Under the pieces are notes generated by a model that made no database searches, was not told the origin of the DNA, and was given only the letters and a program-made list of their open reading frames with translations. A program made the translations under genes and the position numbers. DNA of 64,000 bases from Methylovulum sp. (GTDB lineage Bacteria; Pseudomonadota; Gammaproteobacteria; Methylococcales; Methylomonadaceae), in NCBI GenBank assembly GCA_028712695.1, contig JAQTQZ010000004.1, forward strand, positions 1 to 64,000, given 5' to 3'. Positions 1,969 to 18,743 of the stretch are shown in pieces (position 1 is the first letter of the stretch; each line of letters begins with the position of its first letter).

Positions 1969-1984
1969 TGTTATAAAACCGACA
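1969..1984. promoter_or_regulatory. NifA upstream activator site (distal)
   Basis: TGTTATAAAACCGACA is a perfect TGT-N10-ACA match. It lies 214 bp upstream of the -24 GG at 2183 and on the first copy of the duplication. Confidence 0.7.
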
Positions 1985-2099
1985 AATCCACTACCTACTA
2001 GATAAAATAAAAGTTATAAGTATTAGATAGATAATAAATAACAAACTGTATCCCTGCCTACCCCTCACAACGGCATTATCAGCAAACAGCAAAAATCAT

Positions 2100-2115
2100 T
2101 GTTATAAAACCAACA
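2100..2115. promoter_or_regulatory. NifA upstream activator site (proximal)
   Basis: TGTTATAAAACCAACA is a perfect TGT-N10-ACA match 83 bp upstream of the -24 GG at 2183. It is the duplicate of the site at 1969 with one base changed. A near-match to an IHF site (TATCAA at ~2154) lies between it and the promoter. Confidence 0.75.
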
Positions 2116-2180
2116 AAACCATAGCTGCGGAAAACACCTAAAAAATTATAAATATCAAATAGATAACAAATAATAACAAC

Positions 2181-2198
2181 CTGGATCATTTCTTGCAT
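2181..2198 (+). promoter_or_regulatory. Sigma54 (-24/-12) promoter of the SIR2-GTPase-DUF364 operon
   Basis: CTGGATCATTTCTTGCAT has GG at 2183-2184 and GC at 2195-2196, exactly 10 nt apart. The -12 half (TTGCAT) is excellent; the -24 half (TGGAT) departs from TGGCAC. Transcription should begin near 2208, just ahead of the AAGGAG at ~2220. Confidence 0.72.
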
Positions 2199-2232
2199 AA
2201 GTATTAGGCATTTACACCTAAAGGAGTTTTCC

Positions 2233-3096
2233 ATGTCCACCACGGTATTTTCTGAAATATTAGATGGCCTTTACGACAACAAAATTGTCCCTTACCTAGG
2301 CTCTGGCGTATTGTTCGACGCCAAGAACAAACAGACCGGCCAAGCCATGCCCGCCGATAGCCATAGCCTGATTTTAGCGATGAACAACGGGCAACCGATG
2401 GCGCCTAAATTGATGTACGAATTCCCCCGTGCAGCGATGAACCAGGAACTGAAGCGGGGGCGTAATTTCCTCGGCCAATTCCTCAACAGAACCTACGGCG
2501 AAACAGAATGGACACGCGCTGCAATCCACAATTGGCTAGCGCACTGGAAACCTGCCTATGTGGTTGATGTCAACCGCGACACCCAACTGCAAGACAGTTA
2601 CGCCGATGAGGAACACACGTTGATTGTCGGCGTGGCACGGATTACCGCCAGTCAATTCCGCTTCCGTATCTACCATTTCGACGGCAGCAGTTATTTTGAA
2701 ATTCCTCAGGAGCAAGTGGACTCCCGCTTTCCTGTACTGTTCAAACCCATGGGCACACCCAAACCGGAAGCCAATTATGTCGCCTCTGATGCCGATTATG
2801 TCGATTACATCACCGAACTGATGGGCGGATTTGCTATTCCTGATTTCTTGAAAAGCTACCGTAAAGACAAACAATACTTGTTTTTAGGTTTGCGCCTGAA
2901 CCGCGATTCGGAACGCATGGTGATGAGTGACATCATCAGGGACGCGGCAGAACCTAAAGGTTGGGTGTTGAACAAAAACCCCACCGACAAAGAAATCCGC
3001 TATTGCAAAAAAATCGGTTTGGAAATTATTGATGCCGATGTTGAAGAATGGCTGGAAGTGGTCGGTTTTGCCTGTGAACAGAAAATGACGGCTTAA
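2233..3096 (+). CDS. SIR2-like domain protein in the nif accessory region
   Basis: A 287-residue protein resembling the SIR2-like fold of NAD-consuming enzymes. A glycine-rich motif I-V-P-Y-L-G-S-G-V is at 18-26, a Y-V-V-D-V-N-R-D segment (109-116) takes the place of the family's T-T-N-Y-D, and Y-L-F-L-G-L-R-L-N-R-D-S-E-R (214-227) matches the late G-x-S-x-x-D motif. It has no zinc-ribbon cysteines of classical deacetylases. The start has AAGGAG 7 nt upstream. It is the first gene of a five-gene run behind a sigma54 promoter with two NifA sites, which suggests use under diazotrophic conditions rather than in defence. The substrate is unknown; NADase or ADP-ribose chemistry is only an inference from the fold. 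Confidence 0.75.
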   Translation: MSTTVFSEILDGLYDNKIVPYLGSGVLFDAKNKQTGQAMPADSHSLILAMNNGQPMAPKLMYEFPRAAMNQELKRGRNFLGQFLNRTYGETEWTRAAIHNWLAHWKPAYVVDVNRDTQLQDSYADEEHTLIVGVARITASQFRFRIYHFDGSSYFEIPQEQVDSRFPVLFKPMGTPKPEANYVASDADYVDYITELMGGFAIPDFLKSYRKDKQYLFLGLRLNRDSERMVMSDIIRDAAEPKGWVLNKNPTDKEIRYCKKIGLEIIDADVEEWLEVVGFACEQKMTA

Positions 3097-3120
3097 ATAT
3101 CAATGAAATGTAGGTTGACG

Positions 3121-3136
3121 TGTGCCATAGGGCACA
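3121..3136. repeat. Small GTAGG-type hairpin
   Basis: TGTGCC-ATAG-GGCACA forms a 6-bp stem just after a TGTAGG start (3109), like the larger REP-like elements elsewhere in the window. It lies between the SIR2-like gene and the GTPase gene. Confidence 0.4.
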
Positions 3137-3187
3137 GAACAGTAGGAACCCCAAGCCAACAATGTTATTAAAGTTAGAGGTGGAATT

Positions 3188-3787
3188 ATGAGACCAGAAT
3201 ACTTAGCTACCCCACGCTTAGTCCCCATCCCGACACCCGCACCCGCACCGATGAAAATTGTTTTTGTCGGCAATGTCGGTTCGGGGAAAACAACGGCTAT
3301 CACGTCATTAAGCGAATCGGCCATGCTTGGCACAGAAGTCCGGGCGACCGAGCAAGATGCCCTACACCGGAAAGCCACGACAACCGTAGGCATTGAATAT
3401 GGCGTTATGCACATCCATGACACTAAGCTGCACCTTTATGGGACGCCTGGGCAGCGCCGTTTTGACTTTATGGCTTCAATTGCCTGCCAAGGCGCTGTCG
3501 GCATGGTTGTCATGATCGATAATGCCCATCCGCACCCCTTGGTAGAATTGGATTATTTTCTCCAAAGACATGGTGATTATTTAAAAACCCATCCCGCGAT
3601 TGTAGCCATCACCCATTATGATGACAACACCACCCAGACTTACCTGATCGAATACCATCGTTACCTCAGGGAACATGGTATTTCATGCCCCGTCATGCGG
3701 CTTGATGCACGGGAAAAAACACAAGTCACGCAAGTGGTTGAAAAATTGTATGCCAAAATTATCCGTAGCAGGCGGGAATACCCATAG
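3188..3787 (+). CDS. Small Ras/SRPRB-like GTPase
   Basis: A 199-residue P-loop GTPase of the type found in bacterial MglA/CvnD-like switches. The Walker A motif G-N-V-G-S-G-K-T is at 28-35 and the G3 motif Y-G-T-P-G-Q at 84-89. The G4 position near 141-145 reads T-H-Y-D instead of N-K-x-D, as in several COG2229-like GTPases. The first 21 residues are proline-rich; an internal Met22 (M-K-I-V-F) could be the start, but the ATG at 3188 has a better ribosome-binding site (AGAGGTGG). It follows the SIR2-like gene by 91 bp and is followed by the DUF364 gene, so probably cotranscribed. No GAP or exchange factor is obvious nearby. Confidence 0.85.
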   Translation: MRPEYLATPRLVPIPTPAPAPMKIVFVGNVGSGKTTAITSLSESAMLGTEVRATEQDALHRKATTTVGIEYGVMHIHDTKLHLYGTPGQRRFDFMASIACQGAVGMVVMIDNAHPHPLVELDYFLQRHGDYLKTHPAIVAITHYDDNTTQTYLIEYHRYLREHGISCPVMRLDAREKTQVTQVVEKLYAKIIRSRREYP

Positions 3788-3887
3788 GGCATAAATAAGC
3801 CGGTTGCAGCGTTAGCGGAAGCCGGCGTTTCTAGCACAATCGTTCACGAGATTGCCGGAAACATCTTTAAAATCTCAAAGGTCACAA

Positions 3888-4853
3888 ATGCCCAACCACC
3901 TCTACGAACTCCTGCTAGATTCCTGTAACAGCCGAACCAAAGCCGACAAGCTAATGATCGGCCTCGTTTGGACGCTCTGCCAAGACGACAGCCAAGGGCT
4001 GACTGGTTTGGCGATGAGCCCGAACATCGCCACCCGCACCTTACCTTGGTCAGGCACATTGACGGGCAAACCCGTCACCGATTTGGCAGCGTGGATACTG
4101 GACTGGGAACCGTATAAAGCCACGGTCGCAATGGCTGCAATCAACTGTTGCATAAACGCCAGGCCATTGCCTGAATCTGTCTTGCTGGAAGCCAATCCAG
4201 AACATGCCAACCTCGCCGTGTTCGACTATTTCTTGCCGCACACACAGGGCAAAAATGTCGTGGTCATTGGCCATTACCCCGGCATCGAACGCTACCAAAA
4301 CAAAATGCAACTCACCGTGCTGGAAAGGCAACCGCAACTAGGCGACCTGCCCGATGCCGCCGCCGAGTTCCTGCTACCAAAAGCCGATTGGGTGTTCCTG
4401 ACCGCCAGCACCATCCCGAACAAAACCTTCCCGCGTTTGGTGGAATTGTCCAGTAATGCTAAAACTGTACTCATGGGGCCAACCGTACCGTGGCTGCCGC
4501 AATTGCATGAATTTGGCATTGATTATCTGGCGGGTGTGGAAGTCACTGATGCAACCGCCTTGTACCACACCGCCGCGCAAGGTGGCGGCGTGCGGATTTT
4601 CCAGACCGGCGTCCATTACCGCATCGCCGAATTGGCTCCGGCAAACAGCATGGCGTGGCTGAAACAACAGATCGCCGATTGTGTCGCCGAAAAACACCGC
4701 CTGACGGCTGAGATGGAAAACTGGTATAGCGCGGGCAACCTAAGCCGCTATCCGGCTTATCGGCTGTTGGAAGAAACTAACGTCCGTTTATCGCGGCTGG
4801 ACAGCAGTTACAAGCCACTGTGGGACAGCATGCGCCATACCCCAAAAACATAA
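3888..4853 (+). CDS. DUF364-type protein (putative heavy-metal chelation domain)
   Basis: A 321-residue soluble protein with the DUF4213/DUF364 architecture: an N-terminal small domain, then a Rossmann-like half with V-V-V-I-G-H-Y-P-G and W-V-F-L-T-A-S-T-I-P-N-K-T followed by L-M-G-P-T-V-P. These are the conserved parts of the family, which is annotated as putative heavy-metal chelation from structural data. I use the ATG at 3888, preceded by AAAGGT; an in-frame TTG at 3852 would add 12 residues without a ribosome-binding site. The context behind a NifA-type promoter makes a role in metal handling for nitrogenase plausible but unproven. Confidence 0.8.
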   Translation: MPNHLYELLLDSCNSRTKADKLMIGLVWTLCQDDSQGLTGLAMSPNIATRTLPWSGTLTGKPVTDLAAWILDWEPYKATVAMAAINCCINARPLPESVLLEANPEHANLAVFDYFLPHTQGKNVVVIGHYPGIERYQNKMQLTVLERQPQLGDLPDAAAEFLLPKADWVFLTASTIPNKTFPRLVELSSNAKTVLMGPTVPWLPQLHEFGIDYLAGVEVTDATALYHTAAQGGGVRIFQTGVHYRIAELAPANSMAWLKQQIADCVAEKHRLTAEMENWYSAGNLSRYPAYRLLEETNVRLSRLDSSYKPLWDSMRHTPKT

Positions 4854-4870
4854 GAGGAAACACTGTAAAT

Positions 4871-5314
4871 ATGGGTGCCGATGCGCTTTTTAAAAACCAC
4901 CGCCTACTCCTTTATTACAAAGGTGACATCAGTGCCTTAACGCTGTTTGCCCAACACAGTAACGGCAGCATTTGCTTCCCAAGCCCGTTGCCACTGTTGT
5001 CCAGCGCATTGGAACCGGAAGAATGCACCGAAACAAAAGTCAATCTCCATCCGTCAGCCTTGGTCAATGCCATTAACACGCTATTCCAACTTGACAATGA
5101 CTTATTGCAAGCCGAACCCGGCTTTAGCGAGCAAATTGACACGCCCGCAGGCATTATCATTGTGCACATGGCCCGGTTTAAGTTGTTCGACCCACCCCAC
5201 AAACTGTTAGAAAGCCGCGCCTGCAAACTAAAAACCTTGCCTGAACTACGAGGCAGGCCACCGGCGGAAATGGAATTGCTACGCCGTGCCTATGTACAAG
5301 TGATGGAGTCTTAA
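4871..5314 (+). CDS. Conserved-looking protein of unknown function, 147 aa
   Basis: Translation from ATG 4871 (AGAGGAAA upstream) gives a 147-residue soluble protein with no signal peptide, membrane segment or cysteine cluster. A central hydrophobic strand (G-I-I-I-V-H-M-A-R-F) and a charged C-terminal helix are visible. An in-frame ATG at 4820 would overlap the DUF364 gene. It is tightly packed between the DUF364 gene and the GlcF-like gene (next start 1 nt after its stop), so it should be translated with them. I do not recognise the family. Confidence 0.8.
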   Translation: MGADALFKNHRLLLYYKGDISALTLFAQHSNGSICFPSPLPLLSSALEPEECTETKVNLHPSALVNAINTLFQLDNDLLQAEPGFSEQIDTPAGIIIVHMARFKLFDPPHKLLESRACKLKTLPELRGRPPAEMELLRRAYVQVMES

Positions 5315-5315
5315 A

Positions 5316-6548
5316 ATGTTCGACTTTATGGAGATGGATTTTAATGCTGCGGGCATAACACCGTCATCCGGCCCCTACATCCCCGATGCTGGCGAATGCC
5401 AGCGTTGTGGGCAATGCGTCAGCAGTTGCCCAACGTTCCGGCTGTTCCAAACCCATGAGGAAACCCCGCGTAGCCGTATCCGCACCCTCAGCAAAATCCT
5501 TGTGGAAAACCAAGCCATCAGCACCGAAGAACGCGAGCATCTGGACAACTGCCTGCAATGCCGTGCTTGCGAGACGGCCTGCCCTAGCCGCATGGCCTAC
5601 GGCGAACTATTTGACCAAGCGCAAGCCCAGTTAACGGCCTCCCCTAGCGGTTTGGCGAAACTGGCGTACAGCCTGATCGAAAACAAACGCTGGCGACGAA
5701 ATTTGCTGCCCTTGCTGGCGGTGTATTTAAAATCTGGCCTGCAAAACCCCTTGCGTGCCACGGGCTTGCTAAAAAAACTGCATCTGGCCGATGCTGAATC
5801 CCTACTGACCCTGCCCGCGCTAAAACCCTTAGCGACACAATACCCCGCCATCGGCACGACACGCGGGCAAGTCGCCCTGTTTACCGGCTGTATCGCCGAA
5901 CATTTTGACAACGCCACGTTGCAAGCCGCCATCACGCTATTGAACGCCATTGGCTATACGGTCATCGTACCGCCCGAACAAGGCTGTTGCGGTGCAGTGC
6001 ACCAACACAACGGCCAAACCGCCACCGCATTAATTGACCATAACATCAACGTGTTCAACGCCTTGGATGTGCAAGCCGTATTGCATACCGCAACCGGTTG
6101 CGGGGCAATGTTAAGCGACTATCGGCATGAAAATGAAGCGGCGGCACTATTTAGCCAACGTTTACAAGACATCAACGAATTTTTGCTGGCGCATTGGCCT
6201 GAGGATTTGCATTTGAACGCCTTACCGGAAAAAGTTGCGGTACACGAGCCTTGCAGCCAACGCAATGTCCTGAAAAATCAGCAAACCGTGTACGCCTTGC
6301 TGGCAAAAATCCCTGAATTGGAGGCCATCCCCTTACCCGACAACCACCTGTGTTGCGGCGCGGGCGGCAGCTACATGCTCAGCCATCCTGACAACGCCGG
6401 GCAATTACGCACTATGAAACAGCAAACAATTAACGGCGCACAGGTTGATCGGGTGGTCAGCAGTAATTTTGGCTGTGCGGTTTTTATGAATGCCGGTGGG
6501 GGGGATGTTGTGCATCCTTTGCGGTTGTTGGTGGGTCAATTATCCTAA
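5316..6548 (+). CDS. GlcF-like Fe-S oxidoreductase subunit
   Basis: A 410-residue protein with two [4Fe-4S] ferredoxin motifs (C28-x2-C31-x2-C34-x3-C38 and C79-x2-C82-x2-C85-x3-C89) followed by two CCG cysteine-rich domains (C-C-G-A at ~224 and ~346). This is the layout of the glycolate oxidase iron-sulfur subunit and of heterodisulfide-reductase-like subunits. In glycolate oxidase it passes electrons from the GlcDE flavoproteins to quinone. No glcD or glcE is in the window, and the protein ends a NifA-type operon, so here it may serve another flavoprotein or feed electrons toward nitrogen fixation. The gene name glcF is a homology label only. Confidence 0.85.
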   Translation: MFDFMEMDFNAAGITPSSGPYIPDAGECQRCGQCVSSCPTFRLFQTHEETPRSRIRTLSKILVENQAISTEEREHLDNCLQCRACETACPSRMAYGELFDQAQAQLTASPSGLAKLAYSLIENKRWRRNLLPLLAVYLKSGLQNPLRATGLLKKLHLADAESLLTLPALKPLATQYPAIGTTRGQVALFTGCIAEHFDNATLQAAITLLNAIGYTVIVPPEQGCCGAVHQHNGQTATALIDHNINVFNALDVQAVLHTATGCGAMLSDYRHENEAAALFSQRLQDINEFLLAHWPEDLHLNALPEKVAVHEPCSQRNVLKNQQTVYALLAKIPELEAIPLPDNHLCCGAGGSYMLSHPDNAGQLRTMKQQTINGAQVDRVVSSNFGCAVFMNAGGGDVVHPLRLLVGQLS

Positions 6549-10505: not shown

Positions 10506-10521
10506 TGTCAGGTTTCCGACA
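10506..10521. promoter_or_regulatory. NifA upstream activator site for rnf
   Basis: TGTCAGGTTTCCGACA is a perfect TGT-N10-ACA inside a longer dyad (TTTTGTC ... GACAAAA). It lies 113 bp upstream of the -24 GG, the same distance as at iscA. Confidence 0.88.
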
Positions 10522-10616
10522 AAATATTTTCCAAGCTTACCCCCTCTGTCAGACTTGCCACAGCCCAAAACGCCTGTTTGCCGCGCCCTGCGCGGCTCTT
10601 TACGCCTGCACACAAA

Positions 10617-10634
10617 TTGGCATAATTACTGCTT
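10617..10634 (+). promoter_or_regulatory. Sigma54 promoter of the rnf operon
   Basis: TTGGCATAATTACTGCTT has GG at 10619-10620 and GC at 10631-10632 with exactly 10 nt between. The -24 part is TTGGCA and the -12 part CTGC. Transcription should start near 10644, 29 nt ahead of the rnfA GTG. Confidence 0.8.
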
Positions 10635-16255: not shown

Positions 16256-16665
16256 GCCGGATTTTCGGCGCTGTCGAGTTCCGCTAAAAATTGGCAGACC
16301 CAACCCTCAACACGCGGCAAACAGCGGTTTAAAGCCGCGCGTTTTGATGGGATGGCAAAAAAATCCGGTTCGTGCAAATAAGGATTGCCCATTCTTCCCA
16401 CGTCCAGGGCATCGTGGCTCAAATCAACAATACGCCCGCCGATAAGGTTGTATTGGTGTTCATAATGACCACAGATTGAACCACCGAAAACCTGGTTCAT
16501 GAACAGGCTACCATACTTGCATGAGCCGGAAAGGTCGGCGGGCGGCGTAATATCCCGCTCAGCGGCCTGCTCGCACCATTTGCGGAACACAAACACCTTG
16601 GCCAGCGCAAAACTCTCGTAGGAATAAGCCCGTTGCGCCTTCCGCTCTACCGTCCAATCGTTCAT
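16252..16665 (-). CDS. Putative transglutaminase-like (Cys-His-Asp) protein, 137 aa
   Basis: A 137-residue soluble protein. A possible papain-fold triad is visible: Cys49 in G-S-C-K-Y-G-S-L-F, His67/His70 in G-H-Y-E-H-Q-Y-N, and Asp81 in I-V-D-L-S; the H-x-Y-N then D-L-S spacing is typical of small transglutaminase-like proteins. I do not recognise a named family. Its ATG overlaps the stop of the nitroreductase gene upstream (ATGA), so the two are translationally coupled. It converges on rnfH with a 4-bp overlap, leaving no room for a terminator. Confidence 0.7.
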   Translation of the reverse strand: MNDWTVERKAQRAYSYESFALAKVFVFRKWCEQAAERDITPPADLSGSCKYGSLFMNQVFGGSICGHYEHQYNLIGGRIVDLSHDALDVGRMGNPYLHEPDFFAIPSKRAALNRCLPRVEGWVCQFLAELDSAENPA

Positions 16666-18263
16666 TGCTGTTGTCCTTGCGCCTGCAAATGGCTGTATGC
16701 CGGAAACGTCTGCAAGCGGCTGTCTTCCAGCGGTTTGCCAACGGTGAAATGGTACAGGCTCTGGAATGTATCATCCTTGATGCCCAAAATCTCATGCACG
16801 CTGTCGTCAAAATAACAGCCGATGCCGGTACCGCGTACCCCTGCCGCTTCGGCTTCCAAGTACAGCACTTGCCCAATCAGGCCGCATTCCCAAAATAAGC
16901 GCCGATACCGCCACGGTTCGGCTTCGATAGTCGTCTGAAACTCGGCGACCATCGCCAGACTGAACGCGCTGTCACTGGCAATCGGCTGGTGGCACGACAG
17001 GGTTTTGGCAATCACTTTCAAATCACCGTCATACAAATGATAAAACGGCAATGACCCGTGGTGTTTTTGCCAGCCGAACAGCGCCGATGTCGCCGCTTGT
17101 AACGGTTTTAGAGCCGCCTCATCGCGCAGCAACGCATAAAGGCCGGGCGTCACCCCTTCGACACGATGCACAAAAATGAACAAATGCACCTTAGGCGCCG
17201 ACGGCCAGAATGCAAACGTGGCGGCGCTGGGCAATACGGCACTGAGCATCCGGTAAAAATCGGCGCTGGGCAAAGCGGGCATTTTACCGTCAAATTGCTG
17301 TGCGCTACGGCGCTGGCGGATGATTTGCGCCGCACTGCGTTGGCAAGCGGAAGGCAACGGCGGTTGCGCTGCGGTTTGCCACAGCACTTCGTGGGTGAGC
17401 GGTTTGTGGGCGGCCTCGGCAACCTCGTCTATCACGGGCCAATGGTACAAGTGATATGCCCGCAAACTATCCGCCTTGCCAGACCATGTCGCAGAAGGCA
17501 ACTGCTCCAATAGCGTTGGGTAAGGCACTGGTGCGAGGCTGGCTGTACGGATGCGGCACAACACATCAGGCGCTTCATCCTCGCGTTTTTTAAAATCGCC
17601 GGAGCGGTCTAAGCCCAGTAATTTGGCGATTTCTTCATCCCCCGCTTCAACTAAAATATCCACCGACCAGCCCAAGGTCGCCGCCGCATAACGCAACGCC
17701 CCCAGCGCGTGGCCTATATCATGCTGGCAGTAACGGAAGGCCCGCTCGCCATATTTCCACGCCTCCCGCCAATGCACGGACGACAAGGCAATGAACAGCC
17801 CCGCTTCAGAGGATGATCCGGCAAATTGGCAACGTTGTTCCAAGCGGTGGTCGTGGCTGACATAGTGGTGGACGCCGGACACCAGAAAATCTTGGCCAAT
17901 ACTGATCACATAAGCTTCAGTCGGATGCAAATTGCCGCTGGACGGGTTGCAGCGCAACGCCCAACGGCTAGGGCCGAATTGTTTCCATGCCGACAATCCG
18001 AACGCCAATTCCAACAACAAACCTACATTAGCATTGTCCAATGGCTGCGGCGCAATGCTTTCCGGCTGGTCAAGGTCGGTGAACAACACCGGCAAATCCC
18101 GGCCTGGCGCTGGCAACGGCGACACCGCACAACCGGAAAAGCGCCGGAACGGATCGGGCTGGTCTTCCCAGTCAAGGGTCTCCGGGCCTTTGGCGTAACG
18201 TTGTAGGGTGTGTTTGGTGCGTTGGTGGTAGCTTAGGATAGCTGGGGTCTTTGGGTTCATCAA
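16662..18263 (-). CDS. Tandem SagB/nitroreductase-fold protein
   Basis: A 533-residue protein with two nitroreductase-like halves. The first (about 85-260) has the SagB-type motif R-C-N-P-S-S-G-N-L-H-P-T-E-A-Y-V-I that binds FMN phosphate. The second (about 310-520) starts with I-I-R-Q-R-R-S-A-Q-Q-F-D and ends with a G-L-I-G-Q-V-L-Y-L-E-A-E-A-A-G-V-R-G-T-G-I-G motif. SagB enzymes oxidise azolines in peptide maturation, but no YcaO or precursor gene is here. It lies between a NifZ-like gene and the coupled transglutaminase-like gene, within the nif region, suggesting redox chemistry linked to nitrogen fixation. Substrate unknown. Confidence 0.85.
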   Translation of the reverse strand: MMNPKTPAILSYHQRTKHTLQRYAKGPETLDWEDQPDPFRRFSGCAVSPLPAPGRDLPVLFTDLDQPESIAPQPLDNANVGLLLELAFGLSAWKQFGPSRWALRCNPSSGNLHPTEAYVISIGQDFLVSGVHHYVSHDHRLEQRCQFAGSSSEAGLFIALSSVHWREAWKYGERAFRYCQHDIGHALGALRYAAATLGWSVDILVEAGDEEIAKLLGLDRSGDFKKREDEAPDVLCRIRTASLAPVPYPTLLEQLPSATWSGKADSLRAYHLYHWPVIDEVAEAAHKPLTHEVLWQTAAQPPLPSACQRSAAQIIRQRRSAQQFDGKMPALPSADFYRMLSAVLPSAATFAFWPSAPKVHLFIFVHRVEGVTPGLYALLRDEAALKPLQAATSALFGWQKHHGSLPFYHLYDGDLKVIAKTLSCHQPIASDSAFSLAMVAEFQTTIEAEPWRYRRLFWECGLIGQVLYLEAEAAGVRGTGIGCYFDDSVHEILGIKDDTFQSLYHFTVGKPLEDSRLQTFPAYSHLQAQGQQQ

Positions 18264-18614: not shown

Positions 18615-18630
18615 TGTAGGGTTTCCGACA
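18615..18630. promoter_or_regulatory. NifA upstream activator site for iscA-nifU-nifS
   Basis: TGTAGGGTTTCCGACA is a perfect TGT-N10-ACA, nearly identical to the rnf site and also 113 bp from its -24 GG. It lies 30 bp upstream of the divergent NifZ-like gene and could serve both sides, but I find no GG-N10-GC promoter facing nifZ. Confidence 0.88.
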
Positions 18631-18696
18631 AAACCAGGTTGTTTGTTTGTTTGTCAGTTTTGCAACACTGGGTAAAACAGATTGTTGTTTTTTATT

Positions 18697-18709
18697 AATC
18701 AATTACTTA
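18697..18709 (+). promoter_or_regulatory. IHF-type site between NifA site and sigma54 promoter
   Basis: AATCAATTACTTA fits WATCAA-N4-TTR exactly. It lies between the activator site and the promoter, where IHF bends DNA at nif promoters. Confidence 0.65.
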
Positions 18710-18725
18710 CAAAAATATCAACAGT

Positions 18726-18743
18726 CTGGCACACAGGTTGCTT
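18726..18743 (+). promoter_or_regulatory. Sigma54 promoter of iscA-nifU-nifS
   Basis: CTGGCACACAGGTTGCTT is an almost ideal -24/-12 promoter (TGGCAC ... TTGC) with GG at 18728-18729 and GC at 18740-18741. Transcription should start near 18753; CAGGAG precedes the GTG at 18787. Confidence 0.93.

Follow-up and report, generated by a model that had tools for sequence, protein, structure and literature searches.

A predicted NifA-sigma54-type operon joining a probable PnfA-family SIR2 gene to a NafT homologue in a Methylovulum-like methanotroph

What is the role of five closely spaced genes that lie, at positions 2233-6548 of the plus strand, behind an apparent nitrogen fixation promoter in a methanotroph? 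The stretch analysed, here called the window, comprises positions 1 to 64,000 of contig JAQTQZ010000004.1 from Methylovulum sp. (assembly GCA_028712695.1) and is contig 44 of a 3.8 Mb genome. A sequence-only reading had taken the five genes for one module of nitrogen fixation, composed of a nicotinamide adenine dinucleotide (NAD)-linked SIR2-fold protein, a GTPase switch, a DUF364 protein, an unknown protein and an iron-sulfur subunit. We interpret 2233-6548 as a NifA-sigma54-controlled nitrogenase maintenance operon of a Methylovulum-like methanotroph, an interpretation held with about as much belief as doubt. Its regulation and the identities of its genes are well supported, while the mechanism of repair is one that we infer.

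Promoter conservation and linkage to nif genes

A sigma54-type -24/-12 element, CTGGATCATTTCTTGCA, was located at 2181-2197 on the plus strand, with the form GG-N10-GC, a TTGC half and two mismatches to the consensus. A NifA-type activator site, TGT-N10-ACA, lies at 2100-2115 (plus strand), 133 nucleotides (nt) before the ATG, and a further copy at 1969-1984 (plus strand), 264 nt before the ATG and outside the conserved position. Both sites and the promoter with its strong -12 half, on which the sequence-only reading had relied, are thus present, but their significance comes from conservation and not from raw counts. The window contained 15 TGT-N10-ACA sites against 16.1 expected, and a scan for -24/-12 elements at three mismatches gave 223 matches against 212 expected. 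The activator site is moreover doubled by a direct duplication at 1944-2187 (47 nt at 89% identity, copies 131 nt apart), so that the two copies are not independent. Since TGT-N10-ACA occurs at chance frequency and the sites are duplicated, the raw motif evidence is weak.

The upstream regions of 38 related SIR2 genes, the window included, were therefore set against those of 479 control open reading frames (ORFs); the controls comprised unlabelled ORFs in the same loci that were 120 aa or longer and had 300 nt of sequence before them. The footprint was defined as TGG-N8-TTGC 30-70 nt and TGT-N10-ACA 100-180 nt before the ATG, with the elements 60-130 nt apart. Both elements stood at these distances in 31 of the 38 SIR2 upstreams, which come from related genomes and are not independent, and in 0/479 controls. 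Taken singly, the promoter element was found in 32/38 against 3/479 and the activator site in 31/38 against 11/479. SIR2 loci of no more than 60% identity to the window were excluded, namely the far type, two at 58-59% and a 32% match in locus L121. Of the seven misses, L065 had the -24/-12 element only, and the other six lacked both elements at the required distances; comparable sites occur in L048, but about 115 nt farther from the ATG. The gene for dinitrogenase reductase, nifH, was the divergent neighbour in 18 of the 38 loci, so the activator site may be shared there; in the remaining 20, both elements were still present in 15, one of them the window. Eight of nine SIR2 loci from the Azotobacter vinelandii family were checked, and all eight carried GG-N10-GC (57-61 nt) and TGT-N10-ACA (169-182 nt), with the strict TGG-N8-TTGC in five (GTG starts assumed). 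This footprint strongly supports the predicted NifA-sigma54 control of the operon at 2233-6548. Two further TGT-N10-ACA pairs with -24/-12 elements were seen in the window, at 10506-10633 before rnfA and at 18615-18742 before nifU-nifS, the -24/-12 element of the latter, at 18726, being a perfect match to the consensus.

The distribution of the SIR2 gene closely followed that of nifD. Among 101 relatives (nifD cut-off E 1e-50), SIR2 was found in 49, nifD in 51 and both in 48; the single SIR2 match without nifD, in G043, is a fragment with stops, and nifD without SIR2 occurred in G011, G015 and G054. Across 398 Pseudomonadota (cut-off 1e-100, as also for the family sample that follows), 17 genomes had SIR2 and 41 had nifD, with 15 in common (Fisher p 1e-14). 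The two SIR2 genomes without nifD were G168, which carries nifE, nifN and nifX (L124), and G353, which is unexplained. In the family of G158 (188 genomes; presumably Pseudomonadaceae because an A. vinelandii genome belongs to it), SIR2 and nifD were confined to the same 20. Genomes with SIR2 thus had nifD in 48/49, 15/17 and 20/20 cases, which supports the proposed link to nitrogen fixation, and the gene order, as checked, does not occur mostly in genomes without nif genes.

In the window's order, 18 of 35 loci have SIR2 and nifH in divergent orientation no more than two genes apart, as have 9/9 loci taken from the A. vinelandii family, two of these with one ORF called between. Rhizobium etli and Methylococcus sp. 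EFPC2 carry a more distant SIR2 subfamily inside their nif clusters. The window itself lacks this divergent arrangement: nifA and nifL lie downstream of the operon on the opposite strand, followed by rnf, and nifD is located on a different contig.

Gene identities and operon arrangement

The five plus-strand genes are separated, in order, by 91, 100, 17 and 1 nt, and terminator-like sites were absent from these gaps, the two plus-strand matches being both intragenic; the close spacing without terminators that had been described is thereby confirmed. A transfer-messenger RNA gene lies upstream of the operon, at 771-1148 on the minus strand.

The first gene (2233-3096, plus strand) encodes a SIR2-fold protein (PF13289, SIR2_2, 2e-9), which we place in the PnfA family on account of its position, its family, its co-occurrence with nifD and its A. 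vinelandii orthologue, rather than by comparison with the PnfA sequence itself. In Pseudomonas stutzeri, PST1325 (pnfA) lies opposite nifHDK under NifA-sigma54 control, its expression was lost in nifA or rpoN mutants, and diazotrophs alone were found to have close relatives of it (PMC2820453). A non-polar pnfA mutant retained 23% of nitrogenase activity, which complementation is stated to restore (data not shown there), with nifH transcription unchanged, and it failed with nitrate as the electron acceptor (PMC2820453). PST_1325 is labelled a SIR2 family protein in PMC11332353. Related reports include the R. capsulatus SIR2 family protein Rcc03262, encoded beside NifT and not found in a nifA mutant according to PMC6925177, ZMO1821 of Zymomonas, up under nitrogen fixation and guessed to be a deacetylase (PMC8600466; also mentioned in PMC8594446), and a mention of a SIR2-type gene in Rhodovulum (PMC9412634).

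By profile the window protein is kin to the SIR2 NADases KomC (E 1e-6), ThsA and DSR2. The column of the catalytic His, identified by alignment to KomC (positions KomC H146 and DSR2 H171 were taken from PDB titles), held D, A, T, S, K or E, and His in 0/30 nif-type sequences. The column that we take to be the SIR2 catalytic Asn held N in 15/30 and W in 15/30, by alignment only. Conservation was complete or nearly so at a PYLG motif resembling an NAD site and at several acidic residues. Since the catalytic His is missing in 30/30, the PnfA-family protein is expected to be a nucleotide-binding and probably non-catalytic SIR2 protein. The NAD-linked activity proposed by the sequence-only reading is thus unproven. 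A role in defence was considered in view of the kinship to KomC, ThsA and DSR2; the nif linkage and the missing His argue against it. A DraT-like function in ADP-ribosylation is another conceivable reading of the SIR2 protein.

The second gene (3188-3787, plus strand) encodes a small Ras/Roc-like GTPase (PF03029, 9e-11; PF08477, 5e-9). It was found within the operon in only 4 of 35 SIR2 loci, equal to 4 of the 18 in which DUF364 or NafT follow SIR2 (the window, G016, G019 and G006), and the family was about as common in nifD-negative relatives (27/50) as in nifD-positive ones (30/51). The GTPase is thus rejected as a core member, and the proposal of a five-gene module with a GTPase switch is unsupported; the gene is probably a lineage-specific insertion. 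A palindrome lies at 3121-3136 between the SIR2 and GTPase genes, and a 10-nt repeat, CCATAGGGCA, flanks the latter on each side (3125-3134 and 3782-3791); the repeat was dropped as a meaningful feature, being missing from the G016 gaps inspected.

The third gene (3888-4853, plus strand) encodes a DUF4213-DUF364 protein (PF04016, 2e-40, 138 bits against a cut-off of 23; PF13938, 7e-17) and matched the family of PDB 3L5O by phmmer (E 1e-28). DUF364 was found in one of the 17 nifD-negative relatives tested, G025, with an internal stop. For the solved family member a metal or pterin function was proposed, and a gene context of molybdate, tungstate and vanadium transport was described (PMC2954201).

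The fourth gene (4871-5314, plus strand) had been left as unknown. Its protein gave no Pfam or NCBIfam match over cut-off, and 31 family members gave only weak unrelated matches in Pfam. A profile of these 31 sequences, however, matched A. vinelandii NafT, the nitrogenase-associated factor T, in PDB (8eno_E and 9cjf_E, E 5e-15) over positions 5-139 of 141, and we name the gene a NafT homologue accordingly. NafT S14 is kept as S21, invariant in the 31 sequences, as is the pattern of the C-terminal helix (ELLRRAY aligned), which packs on the molybdenum-iron (MoFe) protein (PMC9968304). NafT was found in 43 of the 101 relatives, 42 of them with nifD, and in four of the 398 Pseudomonadota, all four with SIR2 and three with nifD. 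The exception among the relatives was G084, whose NafT homologue (L085, G084:C1:3702001-3721000) stands in a genome without a nifD match. The NafT of G544 equals 9cjf_E over 135 residues, identical past the start residue, and from this identity and three nifD-like genes G544 is A. vinelandii or very near kin. Here, as in G533, nifENX is followed downstream by nafT with DUF364 directly before it, and SIR2 and nifH diverge.

The fifth gene (5316-6548, plus strand) encodes a GlcF-like iron-sulfur protein with two 4Fe-4S motifs and two CCG stretches (PF02754, 5e-24; PF13183, 9e-11). Of its 16 cysteines, 14 occurred in all 68 sequences compared and two in 67/68. 'GlcF' is a loose label: the protein scored 200.5 bits on NF008434 against the NCBI cut-off of 333, and the only match over cut-off in eight genomes searched was in G029, elsewhere in its genome. 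A canonical glycolate oxidase is thereby ruled out. The claim that the set had no described function was too strong, as the SIR2 gene probably belongs to the PnfA family, for which a mutant has been published, the fourth gene is a NafT homologue and a DUF364 member has been solved.

The arrangement of these genes was followed in the best 80 of 115 NafT loci from titled records, of which 78 gave a NafT ORF; none was called in L137 and L167, the gene itself being found in the genomes concerned (G007, G020). GlcF followed NafT in 68 of the 78, DUF364 preceded it in 50 and SIR2 directly preceded it in 16. NafT lay in nifENX/ferredoxin operons in 38 loci, behind SIR2 in 27, in nifHDK tails in four and elsewhere in nine, the last mostly on short contigs or contig ends. 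The 27 comprised 16 with SIR2-NafT, eight with SIR2-DUF364-NafT and three that had the GTPase too. From the SIR2 side, DUF364 and/or NafT followed in 18 of 35 loci. The commonest setting of DUF364-nafT-GlcF was the nifENX-DUF269-Rop-fdxB-2Fe2S operon. On a quick tree of NafT and GlcF (67 rows) the arrangement required four changes against a mean of 19 when shuffled, with 0/500 shuffles as low, and three arrangement states gave the same result. The tree was midpoint-rooted for drawing only and so gives no dating of the change; the nifENX position is taken as the older because it occurs in A. vinelandii and in L083, L121 and L124 from other families. The nifENX/ferredoxin operon thus looks to be the usual site of DUF364-nafT-GlcF, and placement behind pnfA looks derived. 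The nearest records to the window's NafT-GlcF pair were Methylococcaceae bacterium UBA6146 and Methylovulum species.

Some neighbouring features were also recorded. DUF364-NafT follows rnf and a bacterioferritin gene, and not nifENX, in L108 (Methylococcus sp. EFPC2) and L087 (G096). In many genomes the 2Fe-2S ferredoxin gene is separated from DUF364 by two small nif-operon families that have no Pfam matches (L071, 7295-7675; L077, 11118-11618, minus strand). A 533-aa ORF of the window (16662-18263, minus strand), presumably nitroreductase or SagB-like, has a homologue directly after GlcF in L031, L032 and L061 and is possibly another nif-regulated gene.

A proposed nitrogenase maintenance role and its alternatives

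The operon is best explained as the joining of two older nif units: pnfA, which is often divergent to nifHDK and without which P. stutzeri does not reach full nitrogenase activity, and DUF364-nafT-(GlcF-like). When nitrogen fixation is on, NifA at 2100 would drive sigma54 RNA polymerase at 2181-2197, and the genes would be made together. In A. vinelandii, NafT binds MoFe protein that is homocitrate-deficient or turnover-inactivated (PMC9968304, PMC11612016); the window homologue would recognise MoFe protein lacking homocitrate or cofactor order and hold it outside the catalytic cycle. The DUF364 protein may serve the cofactor metal through a small chelator or ligand that it binds or makes, and the GlcF-like protein may supply or take electrons, roles suggested by family and linkage. 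PnfA, probably nucleotide-binding and non-catalytic, would keep nitrogenase active as respiration and oxygen vary. Jointly the proteins would protect damaged MoFe protein or restore it to function. A more specific version, in which the four form one repair machine, with NafT docked on homocitrate-deficient MoFe protein, the GlcF-like and DUF364 proteins re-reducing and re-ligating the cofactor and PnfA sensing NAD or redox state, we think rather doubtful.

Several observations weigh against the maintenance reading. SIR2 was unmatched in 26 of the 41 nifD-bearing Pseudomonadota, so PnfA is not general, and NafT was unmatched in 9 of the 51 nifD-bearing relatives. DUF364 was missing between SIR2 and NafT in 16/27 SIR2 operons and no GlcF match stood beside NafT in two Azotobacter-type loci; the set is thus not obligatory. 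NafT residues H9, H11, H95 and R16 are lost in the window protein (Y16, G18, F and L23), an R at the R16 position being present in some relatives only. Repair is one suggestion among several by the NafT authors (PMC9968304). The pnfA mutant equalled the wild type without oxygen and remained able to grow on nitrogen-free semisolid medium. PST1340-1343, which lie after the 2Fe-2S ferredoxin and may include DUF364-nafT, were induced only 1.3-3.7-fold (PMC2820453). Given the two gaps of 91 and 100 nt, co-transcription of the five genes is an assumption.

The main rival holds that DUF364-NafT-GlcF serve cofactor biosynthesis or insertion rather than repair, helping to deliver or finish the iron-molybdenum cofactor in new MoFe protein within the NifENX pathway. 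We consider this possible, though on balance unlikely. The nifENX operons as the commonest site (38 of the 78 loci), as in A. vinelandii, would fit it, as would the molybdate, tungstate and vanadium transport context of DUF364, and biogenesis or insertion is among the roles that the NafT authors consider possible (PMC9968304). NafT was caught, however, on MoFe protein that was homocitrate-deficient or inactivated by turnover, and pnfA, the operon partner here, affects activity according to oxygen and electron acceptor and not through nifH transcription.

That the GlcF-like protein and PnfA, with Rnf, feed low-potential electrons to nitrogenase appears improbable. Such a role would accord with the rnf and nifLA genes adjoining the operon in the window, with DUF364-NafT adjoining rnf in L070, L071, L087 and L088, with the conserved cluster cysteines and with the electron transfer or oxygen protection proposed by the PnfA authors (PMC2820453). 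Yet in 68/78 loci the neighbour of GlcF is NafT, which is related to a MoFe-binding protein, the operon holds no flavin dehydrogenase partner, and in nine A. vinelandii-family loci pnfA has no nearby GlcF match. The GTPase-switched signalling module of the sequence-only reading, although a P-loop GTPase does sit in the operon of the window and of three other genomes, is very improbable, as the GTPase is missing from 31/35 SIR2 loci, and from 14/18 with the operon, and has homologues in more than half of the nifD-negative relatives.

The families themselves are known; what is new is the naming of the fourth gene, the DUF364-NafT(-GlcF) linkage, which extends from Azotobacter to methanotrophs, and the pnfA-nafT operon, and no paper joining these genes was found in the open-access literature searched. 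The linkage proposes partners for NafT, namely DUF364, linked to it in A. vinelandii itself, and the GlcF-like iron-sulfur protein, and the pnfA-nafT operon suggests that PnfA acts in the same process. Both NafT and PnfA are relevant to the way in which diazotrophs sustain nitrogenase function, and A. vinelandii, P. stutzeri or a methanotroph could serve to test these proposals.

Comparison with known systems

The closest known counterpart of the first gene is PnfA (PST1325) of P. stutzeri A1501, to whose family it is assigned by nif position, size and the A. vinelandii orthologue; the two have in common a NifA-sigma54-type promoter with TGT-N10-ACA, and many relatives are divergent to nifHDK. 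In contrast to PnfA, the window gene is the first of an operon that continues with DUF364-nafT-GlcF and lies away from nifHDK. The main text of the PnfA paper does not mention SIR2 (PMC2820453). The A. vinelandii SIR2 orthologue is 56% identical to the window protein. The NADases KomC, ThsA and DSR2 have the SIR2-like fold in common with the window type, which lacks their catalytic His.

With the glycolate oxidase iron-sulfur subunit GlcF, the fifth protein shares the Fer4 pair and the two CCG stretches, but it scores below cut-off, its operon has no GlcD or GlcE and its usual neighbour is NafT. The DUF364 protein shares the two-domain DUF4213+DUF364 layout with 3L5O (PMC2954201); in contrast to 3L5O it is nif-linked, and it bears a C-terminal extension that is missing from the A. 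vinelandii copy. NafT itself (Avin_01560, PDB 8ENO and 9CJF) has in common with the window protein a nearly full-length profile match, a nif operon setting and a DUF364 gene directly upstream, while the window homologue lacks H9, H11, H95 and R16, precedes a GlcF-like gene and follows pnfA.

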